DNA of 38,232 bases, taken from assembly GCA_025454755.1 (NCBI GenBank), contig JALONV010000013.1, positions 1 through 38,232 of the forward strand, given 5' to 3'. Position 1 is the stretch's first letter. Every line of letters starts with the position of its first letter. Positions 1 through 34,327 of the stretch are shown here, one piece after another. The notes under the pieces are model-generated. The model searched no databases. It was not told where the DNA came from and saw only the letters and a list, made by a program, of their open reading frames with translations. The position numbers and the translations under genes were made by a program. Source of the DNA: Bacteroidales bacterium. GTDB taxonomy: Bacteria > Bacteroidota > Bacteroidia > Bacteroidales > VadinHA17.

Positions 1-117
1 TTCCCGTGTTACAGGATGGAGCGGAGGCATTGGTTTGTTAGGCATGTCGGCCACGATATTATACCATTGACGCGGCATCTCTCTTTCGCTTAATAAAATT
101 CTTGTTGTCTTTTTCAT
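1..117 (-). CDS. trpB: TrpB2-type tryptophan synthase beta chain, N-terminal part
   Basis: This is the first 39 codons of a gene that continues past the left edge of the window. The translation has ILLSEREMPRQWYNIVAD followed by PMPPLHPVT, the N-terminal signature of the TrpB2 branch of PLP-dependent tryptophan synthase beta chains, which make Trp from indole and serine. Classical TrpB proteins begin differently. An in-frame ATG three codons upstream, at 126, is an alternative start. The gene lies directly behind a leader ORF with two Trp codons and an intrinsic terminator, which supports a role in Trp supply. The active-site lysine lies outside the window, so integrity cannot be judged. The family call is firm from the N-terminus; whether it is the only trpB in the genome is unknown. 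Confidence 0.85.
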   Translation of the reverse strand, partial: MKKTTRILLSEREMPRQWYNIVADMPNKPMPPLHPVTRE

Positions 118-150
118 TGTCTTCATTATTAGTGGTTTATAAATTTTCCA

Positions 151-185
151 AAACAAAAAGGGCACGCTGTGAACAGCATGCCCTT
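151..185 (-). terminator. Trp attenuator terminator
   Basis: Read on the minus strand, a 12-bp stem (AAGGGCATGCTG with CAGCGTGCCCTT, one G-U pair) closes a 4-base loop at 158-185 and is followed by a U-rich tract (TTTTGTTT). It lies between the Trp leader ORF and trpB. The leader RNA segment at 220-228 (TGCTGTGAA) is complementary to the loop and 3' arm at 165-173 (TTCACAGCG), eight Watson-Crick pairs and one G-U, so the two structures exclude each other. Confidence 0.88.
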
Positions 186-206
186 AAAATATCTTATACG
201 GATAAA

Positions 207-269
207 CTATATGGCGTGTTTCACAGCATCAATCTTTGAGCTGCGCCACGACCAGATATTTATCCTCAT
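207..269 (-). CDS. Trp operon leader peptide (20 aa)
   Basis: This short ORF is too small for ordinary gene callers. It reads MRINIWSWRSS then KIDAVKHAI and stop, with Trp codons at positions 6 and 8. It lies between a TAnnTTTG promoter box and an intrinsic terminator, upstream of trpB. The likely role is cis-acting: when charged tRNA-Trp is scarce the ribosome stalls at the TGG codons, leaving downstream codons 16-19 free to pair with the terminator and let transcription continue. An earlier in-frame ATG at 278 lies only about 6 bases from the -7 box, at or before the expected transcript start, so the ATG at 269 was chosen. No stable protein product is expected. Confidence 0.85.
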   Translation of the reverse strand: MRINIWSWRSSKIDAVKHAI

Positions 270-283
270 TGTTTTCATGACTG

Positions 284-291
284 CAAATCTA
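284..291 (-). promoter_or_regulatory. Promoter -7 box of the trp leader
   Basis: TAGATTTG on the minus strand matches the Bacteroidetes sigma-ABfr -7 consensus TAnnTTTG. The upstream region is AT-rich without a clear TTTG -33 box. The distance to the chosen leader start is 15 bases, compared with 19-21 bases for the other three leaders in the window. Confidence 0.65.
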
Positions 292-388
292 AATAATATT
301 TTTTAAAAATAAAGAAATAGTGTAAAAAATTAAGTATTTCTATCAAAATAATGTGATTTTTAAGCTATTTTCCTGTTTTTATTATTAA

Positions 389-420
389 CCCCCTTCCCTG
401 CCTTCCCCCAAGGGGGACGG
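389..420. repeat. GC-rich palindromic element at the aroA 3' end
   Basis: A C-run, a C-rich spacer and the palindrome CCCCCAAGGGGG form a short member of the dispersed family also seen at 6840-6911, 11109-11164, 20961-21050, 23667-23753 and 24341-24433. It is flanked on the left by TTAA, like other family members. It lies downstream of the aroA stop, between the aromatic operon and the trp promoter. Confidence 0.6.
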
Positions 421-439
421 TGATTGCCTGCTATGCGGG

Positions 440-461
440 ATAAGAAAAGGGGTTTTCTTAT
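440..461 (-). terminator. Possible weak terminator at the aroA end
   Basis: A perfect 22-base palindrome (9-bp A/T-rich arms around GGGG on the plus strand) overlaps the aroA stop codon. The RNA hairpin would be AT-rich and is followed by CCCGCAT rather than a U tract, so termination here is doubtful. Confidence 0.3.
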
Positions 462-1721
462 TCGTATACTTCAACTCCCATCATCTTCAGGTCATCAAAG
501 AATTCAGGATAAGACTTACCTATGCAATGTGAATCCTTTATGGCTACCCGGCCGGAGGCCCCCAATGCTGCCGTTGCCAGGGCCATGGCAATACGATGAT
601 CTTCGTGTGAATTCACTTTCGCGCCGCTGACCTCTCCTCCGTTTACAATCATGTAGTCGTTGCTTACCTCAACTTTAATATTCAGTTTACCGAACTCTTC
701 AACAAGTGCATCTGCCCTGTTGCTCTCCTTGTGGATCAGTCTTTTTGCACCTTTTATGCCTGATATTCCCTTGCAATATGATGCAAGTGCCACGAGAGGG
801 GGAAAGAGATCGGGCGATTCAGTGGAATCAAATTCAAATGCTTTGTTCAAATGCTTTGAGGTCTGACTTTGAAACGGTGACGGAATTATCACTGATGCTC
901 AACATGGCTCCGGCTTTGTCGAGTGCAGTGAGTATTGCCTTATCGCTCTGCCTGCTGTCCGTTCTGAGTCCTTCAACTGTTATTTCACCCGCAATGGCGC
1001 CGGCAACAAGAAGAAAGGCGCCTCCGCTCCAGTCGCTTTCGACGTCAAATACCGAGGCCTTGTATTTTTGATTTCCTGCGATTATGAATCGTGAGTAATT
1101 ATCGTTTATCACCCTGATGCCGAATTTATCAAGCACCTGGAGTGTCATGTCTATGTACGGCTTGCTCTTCAGATCATTCACTTTAACAATTGAGTTTTTC
1201 GCTGTCACAGGGAGTGCCATTAAAAGACCTGTCAGAAGCTGAGAGCTTATCGATCCGTCAATTTCACATTCCCCGCCTGTAAGAGGGCCTTTGATTGTCA
1301 GAGGCAGAAAACCGTTATTACTGGTGCAGGCTACTCCAAACTGCCGGAGGGCGTCTTCAATCATGTTCATCGGTCGGTTCTTGAGTGATCCTGCTCCTGT
1401 GATATGGATCTCTCCGGGGTAGAGCGCAGCGATAGGAGAGAACATCCTGATTGCCAGACCCGACTCGCCGCAGTTCAATCGGTGCTCCTTCAGCTCTTCG
1501 CCTCCGGTGATTGATATTTCTGCAGTACCCGGTTTCACCCTGGCACCGAGACCTGTGGCAATGCTCATTGCAGCAAGGGAATCGTCGCAATAGGAGGGAT
1601 TGAGGATAGTGCTTTCTCCTCCGGCAAGCAACGCTGCTGCTATTGCCCTTTGCGTCATGCTCTTGGATGCAGGAGCCTTTACAATGCCTTTTATCTTAGA
1701 TGGAGCAACTATCCTTTCCAT
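458..1721 (-). pseudogene. aroA: Frameshifted 3-phosphoshikimate 1-carboxyvinyltransferase (EPSP synthase)
   Basis: EPSP synthase joins shikimate-3-phosphate and PEP, the sixth shikimate step. The frame from 1721 reads MERIVAPSKIKG, the substrate-binding ASKSMTQRA near residue 20, LNCGESGLAIRMF, and a normal second half until LKAFE, then stops at residue 295. The match resumes in another frame with FDSTESPDLFPPLVALA through HKESNRA and EDHRIAMA to the stop at 458. Joining the frames at that point gives 416 aa, normal for the family. The break coincides with a perfect 13-bp tandem duplication at 833-858; removing one copy restores the frame. All other motifs look intact, so the lesion is recent, reversible, or an assembly error. 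It is the last gene of the operon, 7 bases after the DAHP synthase stop. Confidence 0.9.
833..858. repeat. 13-bp tandem duplication inside aroA
   Basis: Two perfect copies of TTCAAATGCTTTG lie head to tail (833-845 and 846-858, plus strand). Thirteen bases shift the aroA frame by +1. The protein read across it repeats K-A-F-E before going out of frame. Confidence 0.95.
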
Positions 1722-1728
1722 AACACAC

Positions 1729-2853
1729 TCATTTATCTCCGGTCAAACCGTTATGATTCTCAATCCCATCGTTCATCACCCTCATCTGGCGGTTTATTGA
1801 TTCCTGGTGAACTGCCTTGAAGATGCTGTCGATGAGCTCCTCGCTTAGACCTTTGGCCTTTCCCTTTATTAATGCTTTTTTGACAATTTCATCCCAGCGG
1901 GCGCTCTGTAAGATAGTAATATTATTTTCTTTTTTATAACGTCCTATGGTTTCTGCAACTTTCATTCTTTTTTCCAGAAGATCGATAAGATGATCGTCGT
2001 AAACATCAATCTGTTGTCTCAGCTCGCCAAGCACGTCAAGCAGTCTTGGATCGGAAGTCGACGGGCTTCGCAGTATAAGTCTTATCAGCAATTCGTTCAG
2101 TTCGTCAGGTGTTACCTGCTGGCTTGCATCACTGAGAGCTTTTTCCGGATTGATATGGGATTCAATCATAAGTCCGTCGAAATTCAGATCCATGGCTTTC
2201 TGGGATATTTCATGGATATATTCACGCGCGCCGGCAATATGGCTGGGATCGCAGATAAGCGGAAGATCAGGTATGCGGCGCCTGAGCTCAATAGGCAGCT
2301 GCCAGTTGGGCTGATTGCGGTATGTTGTTTTTTCGTACGATGAAAAGCCTCGGTGAACGGCAGCCATTCTTTTTATTCCTGCCTTTGCTACCCGTTCTAT
2401 GGCGCCTATCCAGAGGTCGATCTCAGGATTTATGGGATTCTTTACGAAGACCATCACATCAACGCCTTTGAGTGCATCGGCTATCTCCTGAACTGTGAAA
2501 GGATTAACAGATGTTCTGGCTCCGATCCATACCATATCCATGCCGTATTTCAGGGCTTCATAAACATGTTTCTCATTGGCCACCTCAGTGCCCACCATAA
2601 GCCCTGTTTCCTGCTTAACCTTTCGCAGCCATTTCAATCCGCTGATGCCCACTCCCTCAAATGAGTTTGGCCTGGTCCTTGGTTTCCAGATGCCGGCCCT
2701 GTAAATGCTGACCTGTTTTATTTTCGCAAGTTCTCTTGCGGTTTCCATCACCTGTTCTTCGCTCTCGGCGCTGCATGGACCGGCGATAAGGAAAGGCCTG
2801 CCTTTGAATCCTCCCCATTCTTTTATTACCGATGTTTCAAGTTTAAGTACCAT
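1729..2853 (-). CDS. Bifunctional DAHP synthase / chorismate mutase type II
   Basis: This 374-aa protein should catalyse two aromatic-pathway steps: PEP plus erythrose-4-phosphate to DAHP, and chorismate to prephenate. Residues 1-260 form a type I-beta DAHP synthase (FLIAGPCSAES near residue 22, IYRAGIWKPRTRP near 50, LPLICDPSHIAG near 200). Residues 275-365 form an AroQ-type chorismate mutase helix bundle (LGELRQQIDVYDDHLIDLL, RMKVAETIG). The fusion puts the committed step and the Phe/Tyr branch step in one polypeptide, and in families of this kind the mutase domain can mediate feedback inhibition by prephenate. It lies 5 bases from tyrA and 7 from aroA, within the unit governed by the Phe/Tyr leader. 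The start at 2853 is the only ATG that fits. Confidence 0.93.
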   Translation of the reverse strand: MVLKLETSVIKEWGGFKGRPFLIAGPCSAESEEQVMETARELAKIKQVSIYRAGIWKPRTRPNSFEGVGISGLKWLRKVKQETGLMVGTEVANEKHVYEALKYGMDMVWIGARTSVNPFTVQEIADALKGVDVMVFVKNPINPEIDLWIGAIERVAKAGIKRMAAVHRGFSSYEKTTYRNQPNWQLPIELRRRIPDLPLICDPSHIAGAREYIHEISQKAMDLNFDGLMIESHINPEKALSDASQQVTPDELNELLIRLILRSPSTSDPRLLDVLGELRQQIDVYDDHLIDLLEKRMKVAETIGRYKKENNITILQSARWDEIVKKALIKGKAKGLSEELIDSIFKAVHQESINRQMRVMNDGIENHNGLTGDK

Positions 2854-2858
2854 ATACT

Positions 2859-3704
2859 TTAGTTTAGTATCTTCCTTATTTTATTCGCTTCTTCCATCAA
2901 TGACTTCAATCCATTCGTATCTTTTTCAGCAATCAGTTTTTTAAAAGTATTCATCTTTTCGATATAAGTATCGATAGCTTCAATAATGTAACCGGCATTT
3001 TCAGTGAATATAGGAGCCCACGTATCACCGTTGCTTTTTGCCAGACGGACTGTGCTTTCAAAACCACCGCCGGCAAGTGTCAGAATGTTCTCCTCCTCCT
3101 GTTCTTTCTCCAGAACGCTGAGTGCCAGGGAGAAAGACGTGATGTGGGAAATATGTGAAACATAAGCCACATGGACGTCGTGGATAGCAGAGTTCATATA
3201 GTTGATGTGCATATTAAGCACTCCCAGCATTTTCTCGACCAGCGACAATGCATCGGTATCGCTCAGTTCCGGATCGCAGATGATGGCCTGTTTATAGTCA
3301 AAAAGCTTTCCTATTGCTGCAAGCGGACCTGAGTATTCAGTTCCGGCCATCGGATGCGCCGCTACAAATCGTCCCCTTGCCGGATGATCTTTTGAAATTT
3401 CAGCGATACTGCCTTTGGTTGATCCCATATCTGCAACCACCTTCGAAGTCTTGTCGATTTTATCGAGGACAACAGGCAGCAGTGAGCAGTTCGTATTGAC
3501 AGGAGTGCAAAGGATAATGAGATCGCTGCGGTTTATTGCATTCTCAAGCGTTTCAGCTTCATCGATAATACCGCATAATTTGGCAATATTCTGATGCTGA
3601 AGGCTGGAATCGACTCCGATTATGCAGTCGGCAAATTTTCGTTTCCTGAGGTCGAGTGCCAGTGATCCTCCGATAAGTCCGACTCCTACTATTGTTATTG
3701 TCAT
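2859..3704 (-). CDS. tyrA: Prephenate dehydrogenase
   Basis: TyrA oxidatively decarboxylates prephenate to 4-hydroxyphenylpyruvate, the Tyr precursor. The protein is 281 aa and begins MTITIVGVGLIGGSLALDL, a Rossmann NAD-binding motif GxGxxGG in the first 15 residues. AHPMAGTE near residue 115 and the HxxHVAYVSHISH region near residues 165-178 match prephenate-binding segments of the family. No ACT or mutase domain is attached; the mutase sits on the neighbouring DAHP synthase. The start at 3704 is directly preceded by two copies of a 14-bp repeat with no visible Shine-Dalgarno sequence, which is normal in Bacteroidetes. The gap to the upstream aminotransferase (about 127 bases) is filled with repeats. 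Confidence 0.92.
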   Translation of the reverse strand: MTITIVGVGLIGGSLALDLRKRKFADCIIGVDSSLQHQNIAKLCGIIDEAETLENAINRSDLIILCTPVNTNCSLLPVVLDKIDKTSKVVADMGSTKGSIAEISKDHPARGRFVAAHPMAGTEYSGPLAAIGKLFDYKQAIICDPELSDTDALSLVEKMLGVLNMHINYMNSAIHDVHVAYVSHISHITSFSLALSVLEKEQEEENILTLAGGGFESTVRLAKSNGDTWAPIFTENAGYIIEAIDTYIEKMNTFKKLIAEKDTNGLKSLMEEANKIRKILN

Positions 3705-3790: not shown

Positions 3791-3857
3791 GTCATTGCGA
3801 GCGAAGTGTTGAAAATTAAATAATGTTTCAGTCATTGCGAGCGAAGCGAAGCAATCT
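3791..3857. repeat. Two copies of the CATTGCGAGCGAAG dispersed repeat
   Basis: GTCATTGCGAGCGAAG is at 3791-3806; a longer copy, which continues GCGAAGCAATCTT, is at 3831-3858. The second copy overlaps the 3' end of the aminotransferase gene and encodes its last seven residues and stop codon. Repeats of this sequence type are common between genes in many bacterial genomes. Confidence 0.8.
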
Positions 3858-5010
3858 TCTCCCTGATCCGCTCCTTAGCTTTATTAAGTGCTTCTTCATC
3901 GGCACAAAGTGATATTCGTATATATCTTCCTCCATTGCTGCCGAATATAAATCCTGGAGTTATGAAGACATTTGCGTTCTGAAGCATCTCTTCAACGAAC
4001 GCTTCACAATCTGGAATTTCTTCCGGGATGCGGCCCCAGACGAAGAGTCCGGTCTGGCTTCTGTCAATACTGCACTTAAGCAATTCCATTATTTCCTCGA
4101 CGATCACCCTGCGTTTCCTGTATACACTGTTTACTTTTTCGTACCATGAAGGCGGATTGCTAAGTGCCTCAACTGCAGCTTCCTGAATAGCCCTGAGCAT
4201 GCCCGAATCCATATTGCTCTTAACCTTCAGTATCGAAGCAATATAATCACGATTGCCTGCAACCATGCCGATCCTCCAACCGGCCATGTTATGGGATTTG
4301 CTGAGTGAGTTAAGTTCGAGGACGATCTCTTTTGCTGCCCCTGCAGACAGTATACTGAGATATTCATTATTCAGGATGAAGCTGTAAGGGTTATCATTAC
4401 ATATAAGTATGTTATGTTTCAGGCCGAAGCCCACCAGCTCTTCATATAATTTTAAAGAACCTCTGGCACCTGTCGGCATATTCGGATAGTTAACCCACAT
4501 GAGCTTCACTTTGCTCAGGTCACTCTTTTCGATTTCATCGATATCAGGTGTCCATCCTTTTTTTTCTTCAAGGTTATAATACCTGATGATGCCTCCCACC
4601 AGACTGGTAACTGACGAGTAAGTGGGGTAGCCGGGATTTGGGACCAGGACTTCATCACCCGGATTGACGAAAGCCATGCTTATATGCATGATGCCTTCCT
4701 TGCTTCCCATAAGTGGCAGGACCTCGTTTTCAGGATCGAGTTCAATATGAAAATATTTTTTATACCAGTCAGAGAAAGCGTTTCGCAGTGCCGGTATTCC
4801 ATTATAACTCTGGTATCCGTGTCCTGTCGGCTTTGCAGCTTCTTCAGCAAGGCGCGCGACGGTATTTTCAGAAGGTGGCTGATCGGGGCTGCCGATACCA
4901 AGATTTATGACATCGACACCGGCTTTGCGCATCTGATCTATCTGCCTTAGCTTCTGCGAGAAATAGTATTCCTGGACAGAAGTGGTCCTTTCAGCGGGTT
5001 TAACTTTCAT
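3832..5010 (-). CDS. Class I/II PLP aminotransferase, probably aromatic or prephenate
   Basis: This is a fold-type I aminotransferase of 392 aa. Visible family features are INLGIGSPDQPP near the N-terminus, VPNPGYPTYSS, WVNYPNMPTGA, the NDNPY segment and SLSKSHNMAGWRIGM with the PLP lysine at about residue 238. Its place between pheA and tyrA suggests it transaminates phenylpyruvate and hydroxyphenylpyruvate, or prephenate; the sequence alone does not settle the substrate. The start at 5010 (MKVKPAERTTSVQEYYF) was preferred over an upstream ATG at 5076 because it overlaps the pheA stop by 11 bases, as expected for coupled genes, and because the extra 22 residues lie inside pheA. The C-terminal IASLRSQ and stop codon come from a dispersed repeat. 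Confidence 0.88.
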   Translation of the reverse strand: MKVKPAERTTSVQEYYFSQKLRQIDQMRKAGVDVINLGIGSPDQPPSENTVARLAEEAAKPTGHGYQSYNGIPALRNAFSDWYKKYFHIELDPENEVLPLMGSKEGIMHISMAFVNPGDEVLVPNPGYPTYSSVTSLVGGIIRYYNLEEKKGWTPDIDEIEKSDLSKVKLMWVNYPNMPTGARGSLKLYEELVGFGLKHNILICNDNPYSFILNNEYLSILSAGAAKEIVLELNSLSKSHNMAGWRIGMVAGNRDYIASILKVKSNMDSGMLRAIQEAAVEALSNPPSWYEKVNSVYRKRRVIVEEIMELLKCSIDRSQTGLFVWGRIPEEIPDCEAFVEEMLQNANVFITPGFIFGSNGGRYIRISLCADEEALNKAKERIREKIASLRSQ

Positions 5011-5830
5011 GCAGTTTTTCTCCTTTATTAAAAATTCCAAGCACCTCAAGATTTGTCGTGTAATTCTCAAGGACATTCTTTATTAAACCTATATCATGAT
5101 CTGGTTTCAGTTCAAGGTCGGCGTAGAACATATATTCCCATTCACCGTTTAATCTTGGCACCGACTGGATCTTTGAGAGGTTTATTTCGAGCTCGGCGAG
5201 TCTGACCAGCACGGCTGCCAGTGAGCCGGGCTGATGGCCTGTTGAAAAACAGATTGAGACTTTATTGCCGTCGGTACGGGCATCTTTCTCATCTCCCAGC
5301 ATCAGAAATCTGGTATAGTTTTTCTTGTAGGTTTCAATACCTGGTGCAATAACCTCAAGTCCATATAGTTCCGCGACAGCAGATGAAGCAATTGTTGCAA
5401 CACCTTTTAGATTGTTTTCGCGTATATACCTGGCACTTCCTGCTGTATCATCGGTCTCCACAAGTGTCACACCACGAAGATGACTTAGGTAAGCCATGCA
5501 TTGTGAAAGGGCTATGGGGTGCGATCTTATCTCCCTTATCGAGATCAGCGGCTGTCCTGGCAGAGCCATAAGGTTCTGTTTTATTCTGAGGTTTATTTCG
5601 CCAATTATCTTCATTCCGGATTCTCTGACAAGGGTGTAATTGGAGAGTATGCTTCCCGATCTGGCATTCTCGATAGCCATTGCAGCAAAATCGGCTTTCC
5701 CATCTTTTACTGCCATAAGTGTTAGATCAAAGGTTGTGCAGGGGACTATTTCCACATCTTCGTCCTTGAAAAACAGTCTGGCTGCAACTTCGTGAAAGCT
5801 TCCCTTTTCTCCCTGTATTGAAATCTTCAT
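5000..5830 (-). CDS. pheA: Prephenate dehydratase
   Basis: PheA converts prephenate to phenylpyruvate, the Phe precursor. The 276-aa protein has the PDT domain at residues 1-180 (ISIQGEKGSFHEVAA, AIENARSGSI near 52-61, IRSHPIALSQC near 101-111) with the catalytic TRF triplet at 173-175. An ACT domain follows at about 190-270, where Phe would bind for feedback control; the usual ESRP motif appears here as QSVPR. No chorismate mutase domain is attached. It is the first structural gene of the aromatic operon, starting 13 bases after the U tract of the attenuator, and it overlaps the aminotransferase start downstream. Confidence 0.93.
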   Translation of the reverse strand: MKISIQGEKGSFHEVAARLFFKDEDVEIVPCTTFDLTLMAVKDGKADFAAMAIENARSGSILSNYTLVRESGMKIIGEINLRIKQNLMALPGQPLISIREIRSHPIALSQCMAYLSHLRGVTLVETDDTAGSARYIRENNLKGVATIASSAVAELYGLEVIAPGIETYKKNYTRFLMLGDEKDARTDGNKVSICFSTGHQPGSLAAVLVRLAELEINLSKIQSVPRLNGEWEYMFYADLELKPDHDIGLIKNVLENYTTNLEVLGIFNKGEKLHES

Positions 5831-13655: not shown

Positions 13656-13692
13656 CTCTCCCAAAGGGAAAATGTCATCCCGAACGGAGCCT

Positions 13693-14036
13693 AGCGCAGT
13701 AAGGGATCTCCTAACTCTGTCTCAAAACCTGAGAAAATGGAATATTATTCAAATTGTAGCGCAGTGAGGGATCTCCTAACTCTGTCTCAAAACCTGAGAA
13801 AATGGAATATTATTCAAATCGTAGCGCAGTGAGGGATCTCCTTACTCTGTCTCAAAACCTGAGAAAATGGAATATTATTCAAATCGTAGCGCAGTGAGGG
13901 ATCTCCTTACTCCGCCTCAAAACCTCAAAAAATGGAATTAATTTTCGAATCGCAGCGCAGCGCAGTGAGGGATCTCCTTGCTCCGCCTCAAAGCATCAAA
14001 AAATGAAATTAATGCTCGAATCGCAGCGCAGTGAGG
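13693..14036. repeat. 65-bp tandem repeat array
   Basis: Units beginning AGCGCAGTRAGGGATCTCCT start at 13693, 13758, 13823, 13888, 13959 and 14025. The first three spacings are exactly 65 bp and nearly identical; later spacings are 71 and 66 bp and more diverged, the last copy being partial. Each unit contains the AGCGCAGTGAGG(G/A)ATCTC motif of a dispersed Bacteroidetes-type repeat plus about 45 bp of AT-rich filler, amplified together. The array ends about 160 bp before the T9SS protein gene and has no coding frame. Confidence 0.93.
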
Positions 14037-14193
14037 AATCTCTAGCCTTTGCGAAATTCCATCCCGATTTTTTCCGGAGGGATGGTTATATAAAATCCTT
14101 ATTTACTCTTAACTTTATGAAATGCTCCATACGCAACCTTTAAATGCATTACTTTGTCTAATAAATAAGGACTAACCACCAGATCTGCGATCC

Positions 14194-34225: not shown

Positions 34226-34327
34226 CACCGTTGTACCAGTGTACCGTTACACCGTTGCACCGTTACACCGTTGTACCGTTGCACCGTTGCACCGTTGCAC
34301 CGTTGCACCGTTATACCATTGTATCAT
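34226..34327. repeat. 9-bp microsatellite upstream of the isomerase-like gene
   Basis: About eleven variants of ACCGTTGCA (T/C and A/G changes such as ACCGTTACA and ACCGTTGTA), the last ones decaying to ACCATTGTATC. The array lies in the divergent gap between the outer-membrane protein gene and the TIM-barrel gene, about 40 bases before the ATG of the latter. The 63-aa ORF across it is a product of the repeat. The remaining gap (34079-34225) shows only the candidate -7 box. Confidence 0.92.

Follow-up and report, generated by a model that had tools for sequence, protein, structure and literature searches.

Is the aroA gene, which encodes EPSP synthase, broken in the cells of a Bacteroidales bacterium of the VadinHA17 lineage, or only in its assembled sequence? 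The question is raised by contig JALONV010000013.1 (here C147), which was analysed at its full length of 38,232 nucleotides and is termed the window. It belongs to a draft genome (GenBank assembly GCA_025454755.1) of 2,925,167 bases in 160 contigs that is 97.8% complete. A first reading made from the sequence alone (the sequence-only reading) described a 13-bp duplication that breaks aroA, and proposed that it represents a reversible switch, a fresh mutation or an assembly artefact. Of these three proposals the artefact is the best supported, by the crowding of comparable repeats at contig starts and by two other split genes (contigs C70 and C35) that are whole in relatives; the switch is left without support and the fresh mutation is probably wrong. 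We place the probability that the repeat is an artefact of assembly, and neither a mutation nor a switch, at about 0.88.

The duplication within aroA

Two copies of TTCAAATGCTTTG are found head to tail at positions 833-858 with zero mismatches, and Tandem Repeats Finder gives a period of 13, 2.0 copies and a 100% match. Together with the frame analysis this bears out the original description of the duplication, which was exact. A chance origin was ruled out with 2 Mb of sequence simulated under an order-2 Markov model of the window. The simulation produced four exact tandems with a unit of at least 10 bp, and the unit was 10 bp in three of them and 11 bp in the fourth; because simulated tandems reached only these lengths, the 13-bp tandem is not a chance match. 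On the minus strand, the aroA frame starts at position 1721 and is open until a TGA at 834-836, which lies within the second repeat copy. The EPSP synthase match then resumes in another frame and reaches position 461. The TIGR01356 cut-off of 287 bits is not reached in one frame (scores of the two pieces are in Table 1).

The closest relative, locus L034 of genome G010, is 86% identical to the N-terminal piece and 85% identical to the C-terminal piece. The N-terminal piece differs from L034 at 143 of 292 codons, 40 of them nonsynonymously, and the compared part of the C-terminal piece at 65 of 122 codons, 19 nonsynonymously. Third positions dominate in both (34/17/123 and 10/12/60 differences at the three codon positions, respectively). 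Both halves of the gene have evolved under similar constraint. This like divergence leads us to reject an old pseudogene, but it has no force against a mutation that is very young. The sequence-only reading thought that another intact aroA might make the locus irrelevant; no such gene was found in the draft genome. The sole other PF00275 match, a protein on contig C59, was rejected as a second aroA and is MurA, scoring 413 bits with TIGR01072 vs 44 bits with the aroA model. As the draft is 97.8% complete, an aroA copy missing from it is not wholly excluded.

Relatives display a continuous gene. In a first set of same-genus genomes, all 35 of 35 have aroA uninterrupted, with a length of 417-452 amino acids in one open frame. 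One frame of more than 390 codons spans the repeat site in 107 of 109 relative loci (29 same-genus loci and 80 from a second search, with some genomes counted twice, so that these are not 109 genomes). The other two, L097 and L112, are from distant relatives and have both pieces in the same frame, in a shorter run. A wider search of the genus gave a near-complete match to the aroA model in one frame in 58 of 62 genomes, and 59 pass the TIGR01356 cut-off. The four exceptions are the source genome itself (G000); G085, where the match extends to base 2 of its contig; G064, with one 389-amino acid frame that contains an unread stretch (X); and G066. In the last of these the aroA match switches frame and has a TAA inside the second piece, within the last 700 bases of the contig (C118:9263-9953, locus L118). 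Among the relatives listed, the site shows neither a second copy nor a repeat tract, in a comparison that is across species only. Like that of its relatives, the organism's own aroA is most likely continuous.

The two sides of a repeat can also be separated, with one copy left on each, and placed on a relative. Locus L034 carries the 13 bases once at the site and has the same sequence order on both sides, including the stretch beyond aroA (window 1-360). On this locus the flanks of the window repeat overlap by exactly 13 bases. The flanks of a 73-bp repeat on contig C70 overlap by 71 of 73 bases on L258. For the genes split at the C70 repeat and at a 25-bp repeat on C35, 4 of 4 same-genus genomes examined in each case have one unbroken frame; a Pfam search assigned the two halves of the C70 gene to no family. 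The flank overlaps agree with one genomic place being represented twice. We infer the joining step itself as the simplest account: a leading piece of less than 2 kb would have been joined to the remainder of C147, the two pieces would have shared 13 bases, and the overlap would have been written twice.

Two-copy repeats and contig starts

The repeat begins 832 bases from the start of C147. An initial survey of 306 kb of the source genome showed two more perfect two-copy repeats inside frames, on C25 (37 bp) and C70, and both are near a contig start. Sampling was then extended to 79 stretches including the window (985 kb), then 20 further contig starts and then another 40, for a total of 1,328,264 bases from 132 of the 160 contigs. 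Exact tandems with a unit of at least 11 bp and at most 2.1 copies were counted, and a contig start was defined as the first 2 kb. The final count leaves out unit-10 repeats and arrays of more than 2.1 copies; among these, two-copy repeats of unit 10 are present at some contig starts (C73, C111 or C112 region, C130) as well as in other places.

Fifteen of the 21 tandems counted are in the first 2 kb of contigs, a limit set after the first sample, which amounts to 19.4% of the bases (binomial 3e-7). With the window's two repeats excluded, the count is 14 of 19 (4e-7). The contig-start repeats begin at positions 199 to 1911 and have units of 13 to 73 bp. Their density is 58 per Mb, vs 5.6 per Mb elsewhere. 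Frame-breaking was assigned by a mechanical test, whose thresholds were loosened twice during the analysis and whose positives include some short frames and repeat-rich stretches; it labels 9 of the 15 repeats at contig starts and 2 of the 6 elsewhere (35 vs 1.9 per Mb). Given the densities of all such repeats, about 1 in 10 of those at contig starts would be background, and of the frame-breaking ones about 1 in 20. Occurrence is thus tied to assembly coordinates. A contig start has no meaning for a cell, and the excess there is therefore made by the assembly. Most of the contig-start repeats look like overlaps that were left unmerged where assembled pieces were joined.

The first sample showed no general excess of tandems. 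Exact tandems with a unit of at least 10 bp number approximately 20 per Mb in it and likewise in the relatives' loci, and it is the placement of the repeats within contigs, not their overall number, that stands out. The first control, 80 relative loci centred on aroA (745 kb), has 15 exact tandems, none of them frame-breaking. These loci are mostly away from contig starts, and contig-start controls were therefore added. Forty contig starts taken from other genomes of the genus (72,193 bases in total) have zero tandems within the unit and copy limits, vs 4.2 expected at the rate of the source genome (P 0.015).

Apart from the one in the window, exact two-copy tandems near contig starts of the source genome are at L132:1222-1296, L134:331-476 (C70), L143:1042-1099 (C8), L163:1726-1796 (C27), L170:624-673 (C35) and L177:1586-1612 (C42). 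Most of these six are labelled frame-breaking, and the genes there are probably miscalled as broken.

Comparable errors have been reported. The paper on Vibrio fischeri ES114 (Mandel et al., 2008; PMC2330054) describes artefactual expansions in which contig ends were assembled in tandem. The resemblance lies in genes split as a result of the expansion. In that genome the expansions are 318-1264 bp and have imperfect ends, whereas those described here are 13-73 bp, exact, and in a draft of 160 contigs. Chen et al. (2020; PMC7111523) report on metagenome assemblies made with IDBA-UD and CLC, in which overlapping flanks were joined without merging and duplicate sequence was left. A process of this kind is proposed for C147, but those assemblies have Ns between the copies; the N count is 0 in the window and in the sampled stretches.

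Several observations weigh against an origin in assembly. The 2-kb and 11-bp limits were chosen after the first sample. Taken on their own, the two later samples have 4 of 6 repeats at contig starts, with 35% of their bases there, a tendency in the same direction that does not reach significance (p 0.12). The first of these samples, with 1 repeat in 40 kb, was below its predicted rate, and one of the two repeats scored as elsewhere in the later samples begins at position 2150, just beyond the limit. The last 2 kb of contigs, 139 kb in all, have zero such tandems although the density at starts predicts 8, and this asymmetry between starts and ends is not accounted for by a simple joining error. 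Six repeats, two of which break a frame, lie outside contig starts, so there is a real background. Not one such repeat is present in the 293,571 bases of the controls, which are hence lower throughout, and in each control set a single frame-breaking repeat with a 10-bp unit is excluded by the unit limit. The flank mapping is also uneven: on L262, where alignment ends are trimmed, the flanks of the C35 repeat share only 14 of the 25 bases, and the window flanks, placed on the more distant L036, give trimmed alignments that do not overlap.

Other explanations of the split gene

The 13-bp duplication may be a real and recent loss of function, i.e. a null allele of aroA in a cell that obtains aromatic compounds from its neighbours. 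A perfect repeat that is absent in relatives is what a young duplication would produce, no other EPSP synthase was found, and with 6 of the 21 repeats off contig starts, some are not of the contig-start kind. This explanation is nevertheless unlikely. The duplication is in the very zone where such repeats, and the frame-breaking ones in particular, are crowded. In addition, a search that covered chorismate synthase, shikimate kinase and chorismate-binding proteins showed these pathway families to be intact, with open frames for the first two and for two proteins of the third. Upstream of aroA on the same strand, four aromatic-pathway genes have open frames and Pfam matches above cut-off; to the sequence-only reading the rest of the gene and operon had looked intact.

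A reversible on/off switch would operate by gain and loss of the 13-bp unit and would set aromatic prototrophy at the population level in an uncultured Bacteroidales bacterium. Tandem units inside a coding frame can slip in principle, and a frame-changing tandem within a gene is reminiscent of tandem-repeat phase variation. The aroA repeat differs in having two copies only, in its location in a housekeeping gene, in the lack of a second copy or tract at the site among the relatives listed, and in sharing the contig-start pattern. With aroA also in one open frame in all 35 of the first same-genus genomes, a switch is highly improbable.

Equally hard to credit is a split gene that still works, by recoding near the TGA or by the assembly of one enzyme from two chains. 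The two halves are similarly conserved, and split EPSP synthases have been produced by engineering. On the other hand, relatives have no such site, the residues regarded as catalytic fall in the C-terminal piece, so that the N-terminal piece alone should be inactive, and the first start codon of the C-terminal frame is a GTG at 892.

Neighbouring features and significance

Table 1. Coordinates of the repeat, the aroA pieces and adjacent genes in the window
Feature	Position	Strand	Basis or remark
Perfect two-copy tandem repeat, unit TTCAAATGCTTTG	833..858	.	Most likely a duplicated overlap between two assembled pieces
Putative short leading piece of contig C147, joined at the repeat	1..845	.	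Proposed from contig-position pattern and flank mapping
aroA (EPSP synthase) N-terminal piece, 295 aa as assembled	834..1721	-	TIGR01356 positions 1-290, 252 bits
Open frame holding aroA C-terminal piece	458..892	-	TIGR01356 positions 291-413, 116 bits; family match at frame residues 18-139
DAHP synthase / chorismate mutase type II gene	1729..2853	-	PF00793, PF01817
Prephenate dehydrogenase (tyrA)	2859..3704	-	Pfam family; NF006307 above cut-off
Class I/II aminotransferase	3832..5076	-	PF00155
Prephenate dehydratase (pheA)	5000..5830	-	PF00800

Beyond aroA (window 1-298, minus strand) there is a 23-amino acid frame, MKTMRINIWSWRSSKIDAVKHAI, followed by a terminator-like hairpin. The gene start past the hairpin was taken for trpB-like by eye. 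An Rfam search of the window at the gathering score gave no match to the Bacteroid-trp leader RF01692; the match at 175-298 has 35.8 bits and is below the gathering score of 49. Of 77 loci scanned, 34 have a short frame with a W-x-W motif on the far side of aroA. The leader appears to be of a known kind, one listed in a table of PMC2864571.

The window has other repeats. An intergenic array at 13692-14042 has a 65-bp unit in 5.3 copies with an 89% match, and a 62-bp unit at the start of contig C47 (L200:41-181) has a beginning similar to that of the 65-bp unit. A second array, at 34226-34321, has units of 8, 16 or 24 bp based on ACCGTTGC/ACCGTTAC. In addition, the 10-mer AAATCCGTGT or a shifted form is tandemly repeated on three or more contigs of the source genome (L233:3136-3155, L289:1384-1404, L305:171-190).

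The analysis offers a cheap check for frameshifts in draft genomes, in that exact two-copy tandems can be counted by their distance from contig starts before biology is inferred. Several other genes of the source genome have probably been miscalled as broken for the same reason as aroA. For this organism, an artefactual origin of the repeat would remove a false claim of auxotrophy.
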